Origin: Idiomarina sp. UBA6142
GTDB taxonomy: Bacteria; Pseudomonadota; Gammaproteobacteria; Enterobacterales; Alteromonadaceae
DNA length: 6,032 bases
Reading direction: 5' to 3'
Assembly: GCA_002423905.1 (NCBI GenBank)
Contig: DIVC01000008.1
Coordinates: 2,960 to 8,991, forward strand
The notes under the pieces were generated by a model. That model worked only from the letters and a program-made list of their open reading frames with translations. It was not told the DNA's origin and did no database searches. Positions 2,931-6,032 of this stretch are shown in pieces. Numbering within the stretch: position 1 is the first letter of the stretch; each line of letters begins with the position of its first letter. A program made the position numbers and the translations under genes.

Positions 2931-3323
2931 ATGTCGTCGGCGCAAACCATCCGTCAGTTTCGCGTACTAGCACTCGCCAGTTACCTCGGCCTGTTAGCCC
3001 TGATGCTTATTTGGCAGCTCACCTGCAACTGCGCCAGTAGCTTAAGCCTTAGTTTTCGCCTGAGCTTTTGGGTGGTGCCGCTGCTGTTTCCGCTGTACGG
3101 CATTATCCGTGGCCATGCCTATACCCATGCTTGGGCCAACTTTGTGCTGATGTGGTACTTCTTACACAGCCTGACCATGCTATATGTGGACCCACTGCAA
3201 CGTGACTGGGCTATCGCTGAGTTGATTCTAACCAGCATGGCCTTTGTTGGCTGTACGGGCTACGCACGCAGCCAAGGGCGTGCGCTTGGGTTGGGTTTAA
3301 AACCACTGAAACAGCAGGATTAA
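2931..3323 (+). CDS. DUF2069 family small inner-membrane protein
   Basis: This 130-residue polytopic membrane protein has no known function. Four hydrophobic segments are visible at about residues 11-29, 45-60, 67-86 and 94-112, with a basic C-terminal tail (KPLKQQD region). Tryptophan and aromatic residues sit at the segment ends (FWVVP, WANFVLMWYFLHS). Size, four-helix topology and position between wrbA and hda fit the DUF2069 family. No catalytic motif is apparent. The ATG at 2931 has a strong AAGGAG 8 nt upstream that overlaps the wrbA stop region, so it is translated from the same transcript as arsC and wrbA. Its stop codon overlaps that of the convergent hda by 4 bases. The family name rests on recall of the family and its context, without a profile search. 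Confidence 0.83.
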   Translation: MSSAQTIRQFRVLALASYLGLLALMLIWQLTCNCASSLSLSFRLSFWVVPLLFPLYGIIRGHAYTHAWANFVLMWYFLHSLTMLYVDPLQRDWAIAELILTSMAFVGCTGYARSQGRALGLGLKPLKQQD

Positions 3324-3342
3324 AGCGCGAGAATAGCTTTAA
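3320..3342. repeat. Inverted repeat at the convergent DUF2069/hda junction
   Basis: TTAAAGC (3320-3326) and GCTTTAA (3336-3342) form a perfect 7-base-pair stem around a 9-base loop. It covers the overlapping stop codons of both convergent genes and the last codons of hda. There is no T-run of useful length after either arm, so it is not a textbook intrinsic terminator. It is the only candidate structure for ending or insulating transcription where there is no intergenic space. Confidence 0.3.
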
Positions 3343-3997
3343 CAAAGGGTGTGGTTAAGCGCCGCTTGGCAGCAATAGATGCCTTATCGAGGCGCTCAAG
3401 CGCGGCAATTAAATTCGGCAAGTCGCGCTGCAAGCGCTGCACCATAAATTGCGCAGTGTCATAACTTAAGCTTAAGCCTAACGCGTTAGCGCGCAGCTGT
3501 ATCGCCTGAATTTTTTGCTCATCATTCAGTGGCTGTAGCTGTAACGCTAACCCCCACTGCAGCCGAGAGCGTAAATCGGCCAGTTGCACCGATAATTGGC
3601 TGGGTGATTGGTGCGCAGTAACGACTAATTTACCCTGCGCCAAGTCATGCACCCGGTTAAACAGAGCAAACAGCTCTTCACACCAAAGCGGATCCTGCAC
3701 CACCGCATCTAGGTCATCCAAGCAAATCCACTGATAGTGTTCGAGCCCACGCAAACATTGCGCATCGACCTGCCCCACCAGTTCGGCTAACGGTAAGTAC
3801 ACCAGCTGCGGATAATGCGCACATAAGGCATGCAGCAAATGACTTTTACCGACCCCGCTCGCACCCCACAGGTAAACCAGCGGTTGCGCACTGTGTTGCA
3901 GCATCTCCACTGCGTTGGCATTATCACCACTCACCCAGGTGTCAAACGTCTCGGTCACCGGCAACGAAATAGCCAGCGGTAACTGCTGTGCGCTCAT
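3320..3997 (-). CDS. hda: Hda, DnaA regulatory inactivator (AAA+ ATPase)
   Basis: This 225-residue cytosolic AAA+ protein is homologous to the ATPase domain of DnaA. Hda with the DNA-loaded sliding clamp stimulates hydrolysis of DnaA-bound ATP (RIDA), which prevents re-initiation of replication. The N-terminal QLPLAISLP (residues 5-13) aligns with the clamp-binding segment QLSLPLYLP of E. coli Hda. Walker A is GASGVGKS (45-52), and Walker B is ICLDDLD (91-97). The box VII sequence DLRSRLQWG (141-149) carries R145 at the arginine-finger position. The C-terminal LDKASIAAKRRLTTPFVK (203-220) is the conserved end of the family. The ATG at 3997 was chosen over an in-frame TTG at 4012. It has GGTGAG six bases upstream and forms TGATG with the DUF2066 stop codon, a sign of translational coupling. 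Its Walker A is more DnaA-like than the E. coli one. Confidence 0.95.
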   Translation of the reverse strand: MSAQQLPLAISLPVTETFDTWVSGDNANAVEMLQHSAQPLVYLWGASGVGKSHLLHALCAHYPQLVYLPLAELVGQVDAQCLRGLEHYQWICLDDLDAVVQDPLWCEELFALFNRVHDLAQGKLVVTAHQSPSQLSVQLADLRSRLQWGLALQLQPLNDEQKIQAIQLRANALGLSLSYDTAQFMVQRLQRDLPNLIAALERLDKASIAAKRRLTTPFVKAILAL

Positions 3998-5055
3998 CAA
4001 TTGCTCACCCAACGATAATGCCCTGGTTCTGGCAAAGGCCGTAACTGCCTGCTCAAATCGAGCGCTTGGACGATACTATTGGGATCAACTTGCAGCCTCA
4101 ACTGAAATACTGCGGTGGCATTGCCGAAGCCCACCAATTGCACCTGCGACACCGACGGCAAGCTGGCGAGTAATAATTCAGCGCCAATAACTTGGGTGAG
4201 ATCAGCCAGATCATGCACTGTCATTTGCCATTCGTTGGTTTGTTCTAGGGTGCCACTGATGCGGTAACGTTGCGCCAGTTCGCGGCTCACCTGGGCCATA
4301 ACTAATGCCCCTAATTCATCCTGATCGCTACTCGCAACCTCGCCGCGCCAGCGAATATCACCCAAATGTAAGGTCCAATCAGCCACCCAACTGCCTGGGG
4401 TCAGGGTTGGGTCAGCTTGGTATATACGGCTCACCACCACCCCATCATGGGGATAGCGCGCCGAGGCAAAATCCAGCGCATCTTCAAAGCGGCCCCACAC
4501 ATCGAGCGCACTAATCGCCATGCTATCGTTGAGATCTAATAATGGTAACTTAACCGGCAGCCCGCGTTTTTGCGCGGTTGCCCGTAACTGCAGCACTAAT
4601 TCTGAGGCTTCATCAAAACCAACTAAGCGACGTTGGAGATTTTCGTCTTCGCGTACCATCCACAACAACAGTTCCGGCCGCAAATTACTCCAAATACCAG
4701 ATTCCGCGCGTTGAATCAGTTGATTGACCTTTTCTTGATCAAACTGGATCCAGAGTTGCAACTGGTCTGGTTGCTGTTGATACCCATATTGGGTGACAAA
4801 ATCAGCGACATTACGCAGCGCCCGCTGCACTTCACCATGTTGCAACAACTGGTCATCACCAGAAATGCGCAACAACGCATCAGCCAAGCCTTGGCGCAAC
4901 GCCCGTGTGCGCTCGGCATTGGCTTGTGACTCAACCGCCACGCTAACTTGATACAACTGTTTAATTTCGACCGCCGCCCAAGCCGGCACGGTGAATACAC
5001 TCAGCAGCATCACCACACTCATTAAGCGCATCACACTAGACTGCAGATACTGCAT
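3997..5055 (-). CDS. DUF2066 family exported protein
   Basis: This 352-residue protein of unknown function carries an N-terminal signal peptide (hydrophobic residues about 9-27, probable cleavage at AWA-27/A28), so it should act in the envelope. Recognisable family-type stretches are the N-terminal helical segment RALRQGLADALLRISGD (51-67), LLLWMVREDEN (129-139), and LPLLDLNDSMAISALDVWGRF (170-190) followed by ASARYPHDGVVVSR (197-210). No catalytic motif is evident and no further membrane segments are seen. Its stop shares a base with the hda start (TGATG), so both are read from one message, an order also known from Pseudomonas and Vibrio. The start at 5055 is preceded by a GGGG ribosome-binding site at short spacing. 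An in-frame ATG at 5031 would also give a signal peptide but has no visible binding site. A DnaA box lies 67 nt upstream of the start. Confidence 0.88.
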   Translation of the reverse strand: MQYLQSSVMRLMSVVMLLSVFTVPAWAAVEIKQLYQVSVAVESQANAERTRALRQGLADALLRISGDDQLLQHGEVQRALRNVADFVTQYGYQQQPDQLQLWIQFDQEKVNQLIQRAESGIWSNLRPELLLWMVREDENLQRRLVGFDEASELVLQLRATAQKRGLPVKLPLLDLNDSMAISALDVWGRFEDALDFASARYPHDGVVVSRIYQADPTLTPGSWVADWTLHLGDIRWRGEVASSDQDELGALVMAQVSRELAQRYRISGTLEQTNEWQMTVHDLADLTQVIGAELLLASLPSVSQVQLVGFGNATAVFQLRLQVDPNSIVQALDLSRQLRPLPEPGHYRWVSN

Positions 5056-5084
5056 AATTGCCCCAAAAAATCGGATATGCTCCC

Positions 5085-5113
5085 ATAATAATCAGCCAAC
5101 GCCTGTCGAGCAA
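5085..5113 (-). promoter_or_regulatory. Possible promoter of the DUF2066-hda operon
   Basis: On the minus strand TATTAT (5090-5085) matches five of six -10 bases. TTGCTC (5113-5108), 17 bases upstream, matches three of six -35 bases. Transcription would start near 5078, giving a leader of about 23 nt. The -35 element is weak, which would be compatible with control by a regulator bound just upstream, where the DnaA box lies. Confidence 0.42.
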
Positions 5114-5122
5114 GTAACAAGC

Positions 5123-5131
5123 TGTGGATAA
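5123..5131 (-). promoter_or_regulatory. Consensus DnaA box upstream of DUF2066-hda
   Basis: The minus strand reads TTATCCACA, a perfect match to the DnaA-box consensus TTATNCACA and identical to the strongest class of E. coli boxes. It lies about 9 bases upstream of the putative -35 of the DUF2066-hda operon and 67 nt before the first start codon. This is a position from which DnaA could activate or repress. It is also in the upstream region of the divergent MFS gene. With equal base use, an exact 9-mer is expected about 0.001 times in this intergenic region on both strands, or about 0.05 times in the whole window. Confidence 0.6.
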
Positions 5132-5162
5132 CTCATTGTTCATACACCCTTTGCGTTTGCTG

Positions 5163-5171
5163 TGCTACACT
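5163..5171 (+). promoter_or_regulatory. Possible extended -10 promoter of the MFS gene
   Basis: TGCTACACT combines the extended TGn element with TACACT, which matches four of six -10 bases. The -35 position 17 bases upstream (TACACC, 5143-5148) is poor, as expected when an extended -10 is used. Transcription would start near 5178, leaving a leader of about 58 nt before the ATG at 5236. Confidence 0.35.
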
Positions 5172-5235: not shown

Positions 5236-6032
5236 ATGTTGAAGCAACAATTGCGAGCCATCAGTTCACTGCTTACCAGTGTGACCTTTATTGGTATTTG
5301 CGTGGGCATGACCAGCACCTTGTTATCATTACGTGCCACCATGGAAGACTTTGGCACCCTCACCACCGGCATGATCATGTCGGCTTACTTTATCGGCTTT
5401 TTATTTGGTACCACGCGAGCTCCCAAAGATATCCGTCGAGTCGGCTATATTCGCGCCTTTGGCGGCTTAGCCGCACTGGGCGCAGCATCGGTATTGATTC
5501 AAGCGGTGTGGATTGACCCGCTGGTCTGGTTTGTCATGCGCTTTCTGACCGGCTTCGCCATGTCAGCAATTTTTGTCATTGTTGAAAGCTGGCTTAACAC
5601 CATGGCCGATAACCGTAATCGTGGCACGGTGTTATCGGTTTACTTGGTACTGATTTACGGCGGTTTGGTCATTGGTCAGTTACTGCTCGGCATTGCTGAC
5701 CCCAGCGGCTTTGTCGCCTTCGCGCTGGTGGCACTGCTGATGAACCTGTCAATTATTCCGATCTTAATCAGCGTTACCGTTGAACCGACCGGCCATGAAC
5801 CGCGCGCCGTGCCACTAGGCCAACTGTTTAAAATAGTACCGCTGGGGCTGGTCAACGCCTTCATTATGCAGGCATGTTTTGCCATGTTTTACGGTATTGG
5901 CCCCATGTATGCGCTGTATATCGGCTTAACCGTTGAGCAAGTATCGCTATTTATGGCGGCATTTATTCTCGGCGGTTTGCTCGCCCAAGCACCGATTGGC
6001 TATTTATCAGACCGCATCGATAGGCGCTGGAT
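5236..6032 (+). CDS. MFS transporter, YcaD-like, 3' end outside the window
   Basis: This open frame runs from ATG at 5236 to the window edge without a stop, giving 265 residues of an expected 380-420. It is a major facilitator superfamily inner-membrane transporter. Hydrophobic segments appear at about residues 10-32, 44-59, 72-92, 96-118, 130-150, 157-180, 204-226 and 233-255. The loop after the second segment (TTRAPKDIRRVGYIR) fits the MFS loop 2-3 position. IVESWLNTMADNRNRGTVLSVY (114-135) resembles the VVES...RNRG...Y stretch of E. coli YcaD, and GYLSDRIDRRW near the edge is the loop 8-9 motif. The substrate cannot be told. AGGA lies about 10 nt before the start, a usable but not ideal spacing. 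The gene is divergent from the DUF2066-hda operon, at a place where purM often lies in relatives. Confidence 0.87.
   Translation, partial: MLKQQLRAISSLLTSVTFIGICVGMTSTLLSLRATMEDFGTLTTGMIMSAYFIGFLFGTTRAPKDIRRVGYIRAFGGLAALGAASVLIQAVWIDPLVWFVMRFLTGFAMSAIFVIVESWLNTMADNRNRGTVLSVYLVLIYGGLVIGQLLLGIADPSGFVAFALVALLMNLSIIPILISVTVEPTGHEPRAVPLGQLFKIVPLGLVNAFIMQACFAMFYGIGPMYALYIGLTVEQVSLFMAAFILGGLLAQAPIGYLSDRIDRRW

Follow-up and report, generated by a model that had tools for sequence, protein, structure and literature searches.

The original paper on the hdaA promoter of Caulobacter crescentus is reportedly that of Collier and Shapiro in 2009. According to the available part of PMC3193534, DnaA activates this promoter, which has up to six DnaA boxes. 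For Escherichia coli, the picture in the literature consulted is made up of dnaA autoregulation, inactivation by Hda, datA, and DARS. As reported in the accessible portion of PMC11317965, E. coli has 32 perfect boxes, 13 of which are bound by DnaA, and pairs of boxes 2–3 bp apart are preferred. The same portion lists nrdA as positively regulated by DnaA, and Table 1 of this ChIP-seq study, which gives 16 DnaA-bound regions, does not include hda. The nrdAB genes are activated or repressed, depending on the nucleotide and the level of DnaA (PMC8203912). In proteomics of slow-growing E. coli, the DnaA regulon responded little to the DnaA switch or to titration, as far as the available part of PMC12371093 goes. 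How DnaA-ATP is kept within bounds is a long-standing question. In the literature searched, no report was found of a DnaA box at hda, or of DnaA control of hda, outside Caulobacter.

The DNA analysed here, called the window, is a stretch of 6,032 nucleotides from Idiomarina sp. UBA6142, whose genome assembly is 77.5% complete and consists of 129 contigs. The hda gene for the DnaA inactivator lies on the minus strand at 3320..3997 (TIGR03420, 241.2 bits against a cut-off of 194.8). It is preceded on the same strand by a DUF2066 gene (3997..5055; PF09839, 220.7 bits), the first gene of a predicted operon. Both genes are what the initial annotation had named them. The mechanically called ORF for hda begins at a TTG at 4012, and the ATG is at 3995-3997. 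As read from the sequence, this ATG overlaps the stop codon of DUF2066 by one base (window position 3997), and the two genes are therefore predicted to form an operon. Given the one-base overlap, their translation is likely to be coupled. DUF2066 was present in 146 of 147 genomes of the family, and in 145 of these 146 it is followed by hda in the same orientation, the sole miss being a short contig. On the other side of the intergenic region, an MFS transporter gene (PF07690) runs divergently on the plus strand from 5236 to 6032, where the window end cuts it; it is an alternative target of the box described below. Genes for BepA, a thioredoxin-like protein, an ArsC-family protein, a WrbA-like protein, and DUF2069 are also found within the window.

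A DnaA box, TTATCCACA, was found on the minus strand at 5123..5131. It matches the consensus perfectly and is the sole perfect TTATNCACA in the window. Along the minus strand, the box is followed by 9 bp, a predicted -35 element TTGCTC (5108..5113; TTGCNN in relatives), 17 bp, a predicted -10 element TATTAT (5085..5090; TANNAT in relatives), and then DUF2066-hda. The predicted transcription start on this strand is an A at 5078, 7 bases past the -10 element, and an A stands there in 28 of 34 de-duplicated sites. Counted from this start, the centre of the box is near -49. Thus, the earlier claim of a perfect box directly upstream of a likely DUF2066-hda promoter was borne out. A generic sigma-70 consensus scan did not list the DUF2066-hda promoter, whose -35 element matches the consensus at only 3 of 6 positions; since the scan omits it, the promoter was assigned from conservation. 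A second conserved element, TTGTTACTTGC (general form TTGTNACTTGC; 5110..5120, minus strand), begins 2 bp past the box and extends into the -35 element. With up to one mismatch allowed, TTATNCACA occurs five times in the window, the perfect one included, against 5.34 expected, which is the chance level. In the whole genome of the window, TTATNCACA is enriched (65 occurrences versus 23 of the pattern read backwards) and TTATCCACA is over-represented (31 versus 10 of the word read backwards). A single perfect 9-mer at one promoter could be due to chance, but the conservation of this putative site indicates that it is not.

I compared 62 genomes, namely 26 of Pseudidiomarina, 19 of Idiomarina, and 17 of Aliidiomarina, with none dropped. 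Of these, 56, with all three genera represented, preserve the composite TTATCCACA-NN-TTGTNACTTGC-N19-TANNAT in full and without any change in spacing. The spacing and distance measurements cover these 56 intact sites: TANNAT begins 41 bp past the start of the box in 56 of 56, and the 500 bp upstream contain one perfect box in each. Thus, a consensus box stands at the promoter in a fixed register with the -35 and -10 elements, as at a DnaA-regulated promoter, and the question posed by the initial annotation, whether relatives keep the box at the same distance, is answered positively in three genera. In the remaining six genomes, the box is decayed in four and lost in two. Four Aliidiomarina loci (L010, L206, L210, and L211) have a box with 1–2 mismatches to TTATNCACA and keep at least 8 of the 10 defined bases of the neighbouring element. 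Two Pseudidiomarina loci (L168 and L184) have no recognisable box and keep TTGCTC, the 17-bp spacer, and the -10 element. In an alignment of 34 de-duplicated sites, the mean information per column is 1.67 bits for the box, 1.82 bits for the defined columns of the neighbour, and 0.18 bits for the spacer columns 24–33. Each locus in this alignment is anchored at its best composite match, so these values lean towards the composite; L184 is misplaced in it and was described from a separate reading of the locus. With a spacer this close to random beside a box that hardly varies, common descent by itself is not enough to account for the box. The weak -35 element is itself conserved, with TTGC at a fixed spacing in the aligned sites. 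This much of the earlier remark on the weak -35 element beside the box held, and it fits a regulated promoter; the activating sign suggested with it is discussed below as a reading of the layout. On these comparisons, the consensus box is fixed in the predicted DUF2066-hda promoter across Idiomarina, Pseudidiomarina, and Aliidiomarina.

The same word is found at other loci where DnaA would act. The likely oriC of the window's genome, on contig C62 (L280, 1428-1616), has three copies of TTATCCACA and one of TTATTCACA in 189 bp, and the ORFs flanking it are presumably a flavodoxin-like gene and mnmG. One copy of TTATCCACA lies upstream of dnaA. A piece of DnaA domain IV was found in this genome with RPRQ and DHTTV, which I take to be meaningful motifs of the domain. 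The dnaA gene itself (G000:C126:7457-8727) was matched as two pieces in different frames, perhaps owing to an assembly error. In the complete genome of Idiomarina loihiensis (G197), TTATCCACA occurs 51 times versus 10 for the word read backwards; the number reported for E. coli is 32 (PMC11317965). An inverted pair of TTATCCACA 61 bp apart was observed on contig C89 of the window's own genome (26935/26996; L293) and also in I. loihiensis (G197:C1:1299095/1299156). These pairs may mark a conserved locus for DnaA binding, similar to datA or DARS. A datA/DARS-type assignment was rejected for the hda site, which has one perfect box only, locked to a promoter.

What may the box do? I lean towards the reading that DnaA binds the box and activates the predicted DUF2066-hda operon, which would result in negative feedback on DnaA-ATP. 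Binding of DnaA to the conserved box upstream of the weak predicted -35 element is suggested because the likely oriC of this genome is built from this word. Bound DnaA would then activate DUF2066-hda from near -49, beside the -35 and -10 elements; activation is preferred to repression because the box lies beside these elements and not over them. Caulobacter hdaA, which DnaA activates, and the similar layout of E. coli nrdA speak for this reading. If hda is co-transcribed with DUF2066, more DnaA would give more Hda and, in turn, lower DnaA-ATP. It is likely, judging from the sequence, that DnaA governs how much Hda, the protein that switches it off, is made. Of the feedback loop proposed by the initial annotation, the box fixed in the predicted promoter of DUF2066-hda has stood; the binding, the sign, and the effect on the Hda level would follow as described here. 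It speaks against the feedback model that the loci L168 and L184 keep the weak -35 and -10 elements without a box, so that two Pseudidiomarina live boxless. The four decayed boxes weigh on the same side, as do the 13 of 32 perfect E. coli boxes bound by DnaA and the preference for pairs there, the conserved neighbour that the model does not account for, the small response of the regulon in slow-growing E. coli, and the failure of the consensus scan to list the promoter; the two-way control of nrdAB bears on the sign.

Repression by the bound DnaA is the best of the other readings, although I regard it as improbable. High DnaA would then give less Hda, a sharper initiation, and a positive loop on DnaA-ATP. 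High DnaA-ATP is known to repress nrdAB (PMC8203912), the layout of which is close to that of the hda promoter, and most E. coli targets listed in the available part of PMC11317965 are repressed. However, the box is clear of the -35 element, which it precedes by 9 bp, and of the -10 element and the start; the weak -35 element is itself conserved; and the Caulobacter hdaA circuit, the one studied relative, is activated according to the available part of PMC3193534.

It is quite unlikely that the box acts on the divergent MFS gene, whether alone or together with DUF2066-hda. This reading draws on the co-occurrence of the box with the MFS neighbour. Twelve of the 146 family loci carry the divergent MFS gene, and a perfect box was found in 11 of these 12 versus only 4 of the 134 Alteromonadaceae loci without it (L073, L075, L105, and L164; -400 to +30). 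Moreover, a pattern search of the aligned sites revealed a predicted extended -10 element for the MFS gene, TGCTACACT, at 5163..5171 on the plus strand, and in 23 of the 24 intact Pseudidiomarina sites this element is 39–41 bp from the box. Its distance to the box differs by genus, however: it is 42–43 or 54 bp in 13 Aliidiomarina sites, and the pattern was not found in 17 of the 19 Idiomarina sites. Across the 56 intact sites, the MFS gene starts anywhere from 67 to 127 bp from the box, with 26 different distances. As this distance varies and the spacing on the DUF2066 side does not change by a single base, the box is assigned to the DUF2066-hda promoter. An added effect of the box on the MFS gene may exist, at least in Pseudidiomarina. 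Idiomarina loci (L006, L016, L196, and others) were seen to have a second TGTGG on the MFS side after TGTGGATAA, as in TGTGGATAAGCTTGTGGGAAT; this degenerate TGTGG repeat beside the box is found in most of the Idiomarina sites printed.

The neighbouring element deserves its own account. TTGTNACTTGC is conserved as strongly as the box and overlaps the -35 element. It starts 2 bp past the box, at the spacing of the E. coli pairs, and in this it resembles the double DnaA box of E. coli (Stringer 2024; available part of PMC11317965). It differs from the double box in that the neighbouring element is no better than chance against the consensus: the best partner matches at 4 of 9 positions, a score reached by 53% of random positions. 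No consensus partner beats chance, and a double DnaA box is at most a possibility here. The whole block could instead be the site of another regulator or an unusual contact of RNA polymerase, with its likeness to a DnaA box being incidental; this view gains from the neighbour being conserved like the box yet not box-like, and largely intact in L206, L210, L211, and L168 despite their decayed or absent box, but I hold it to be highly doubtful, since conservation of the block sets in with the first letter of the DnaA consensus word, this word is also that of the likely oriC of this genome, and the neighbour alone is not enriched in the 26 Pseudidiomarina genomes (156 occurrences versus 181 for the reversed pattern, summed). 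By the same count, a wider regulon of TTGTNACTTGC was rejected. A degenerate second site, TCATACACC (5140-5148), had been put forward as a helper of binding. Its two mismatches were confirmed; the close relative L002 already shows three, none of the other relatives read has kept the site, and it was dropped as not conserved.

Is the box at hda common in other groups? The 22-bp core gave 50 matches in a scan of a species-genome collection that may omit records very near the window's genome. By record name, 48 are Idiomarina, Pseudidiomarina, or Aliidiomarina, one is an Idiomarinaceae bacterium, and one is a Gammaproteobacteria bacterium. A divergent MFS gene lies upstream of the core in all 50 matches, and DUF2066 lies downstream in all 45 loci that are long enough, the other five ending 46–328 bp past the start of the element. 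The hda gene itself is within reach in 35 of the 50. Any generality of the box at hda could not be upheld, as there is no enrichment outside the three genera in either of the two sets searched. In the 134 family loci without the MFS gene, boxes with one mismatch number 51, the same as for the reversed pattern, and the best composites score like shuffled sequences; an ancestral box of the family was thus rejected. In 103 kb upstream of 70 other gammaproteobacterial hda genes, TTATNCACA was found once and the reversed pattern once, and a class-wide box was rejected on this equality. These 70 loci were drawn from the 79 best-scoring of 181 matching genomes, with nine passed over, and are not a random draw; the 1.5 kb taken upstream of each hda gene need not reach every operon promoter.

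I also searched for the box at nrdA, within 350 bp upstream of the reading frame or in its first 60 bp. The count covers 30 of 31 genomes (L406-L435), G026 having no locus. Among 12 genomes from other families in the order, 9 have a perfect TTATNCACA there; among the 18 Pseudidiomarina genomes, which are of one genus and stand for one event at most, none has. In I. loihiensis, all 51 TTATCCACA sites fall within 48 loci, none of which matches the first 400 residues of NrdA. Likewise, no such match was found in the loci of 30 of the 31 TTATCCACA sites of the window's genome, and the same search does find this genome's own nrdA locus. A rewiring of the DnaA regulon in the Idiomarina group is conceivable but rather unlikely: control would have been lost from nrdA and installed on hda in a layout close to that of nrdAB, and DnaA-ATP would be metered by making the off-switch in proportion to DnaA. 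Should the loss at nrdA and the gain at hda be linked, they would illustrate how a replication initiator's regulon changes over evolution. With its conserved box on hda, this gammaproteobacterial group offers a variant made by nature: altering nine bases would be enough to test feedback through the inactivator, with the boxless natural promoters of L168 and L184 as ready controls.

How does this locus compare with the known systems? As in the window, bepA and an arsC-like gene (yfgD) are found in the vicinity of E. coli hda; unlike in the window, hda follows upp-uraA there. No perfect TTATNCACA was found in 8 kb of the E. coli hda region. The E. coli nrdA promoter has TTATCCACA, 11 bp, TTGCAA, 17 bp, and TATCTT, the -35 and -10 elements being my own reading. 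Thus, it resembles the hda promoter of the Idiomarina group in its weak TTGC -35 element, its 17-bp spacer, and the position of TTATCCACA shortly before the -35 element. The box is 11 bp from the -35 element in E. coli nrdAB versus 9 bp here, and the start of the box is 43 bp versus 41 bp from the -10 element. E. coli nrdAB, a different gene, carries an obvious second box, TTATGCACT, 3 bp from the first, unlike the sites described here. A likeness to E. coli nrdA in the stretch from the box to the -35 element was rejected, as random 9-mers equal it in 0.3 to 36% of trials, and the fraction is 0.36 for the Pseudidiomarina stretch itself. In its proposed function, the locus resembles C. crescentus hdaA, a gene for a DnaA inactivator that likewise has DnaA boxes at its promoter; here, too, the predicted operon downstream of the box encodes this inactivator by its TIGR03420 match, as in an hdaA-type feedback. 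This likeness is one of description and not of sequence comparison: Caulobacter is an alphaproteobacterium with up to six boxes at the promoter, and the sites of the Idiomarina group have one perfect box each. The conserved hda box of the Idiomarina group may best be regarded as a variant on the DnaA-activated hdaA already known from Caulobacter.
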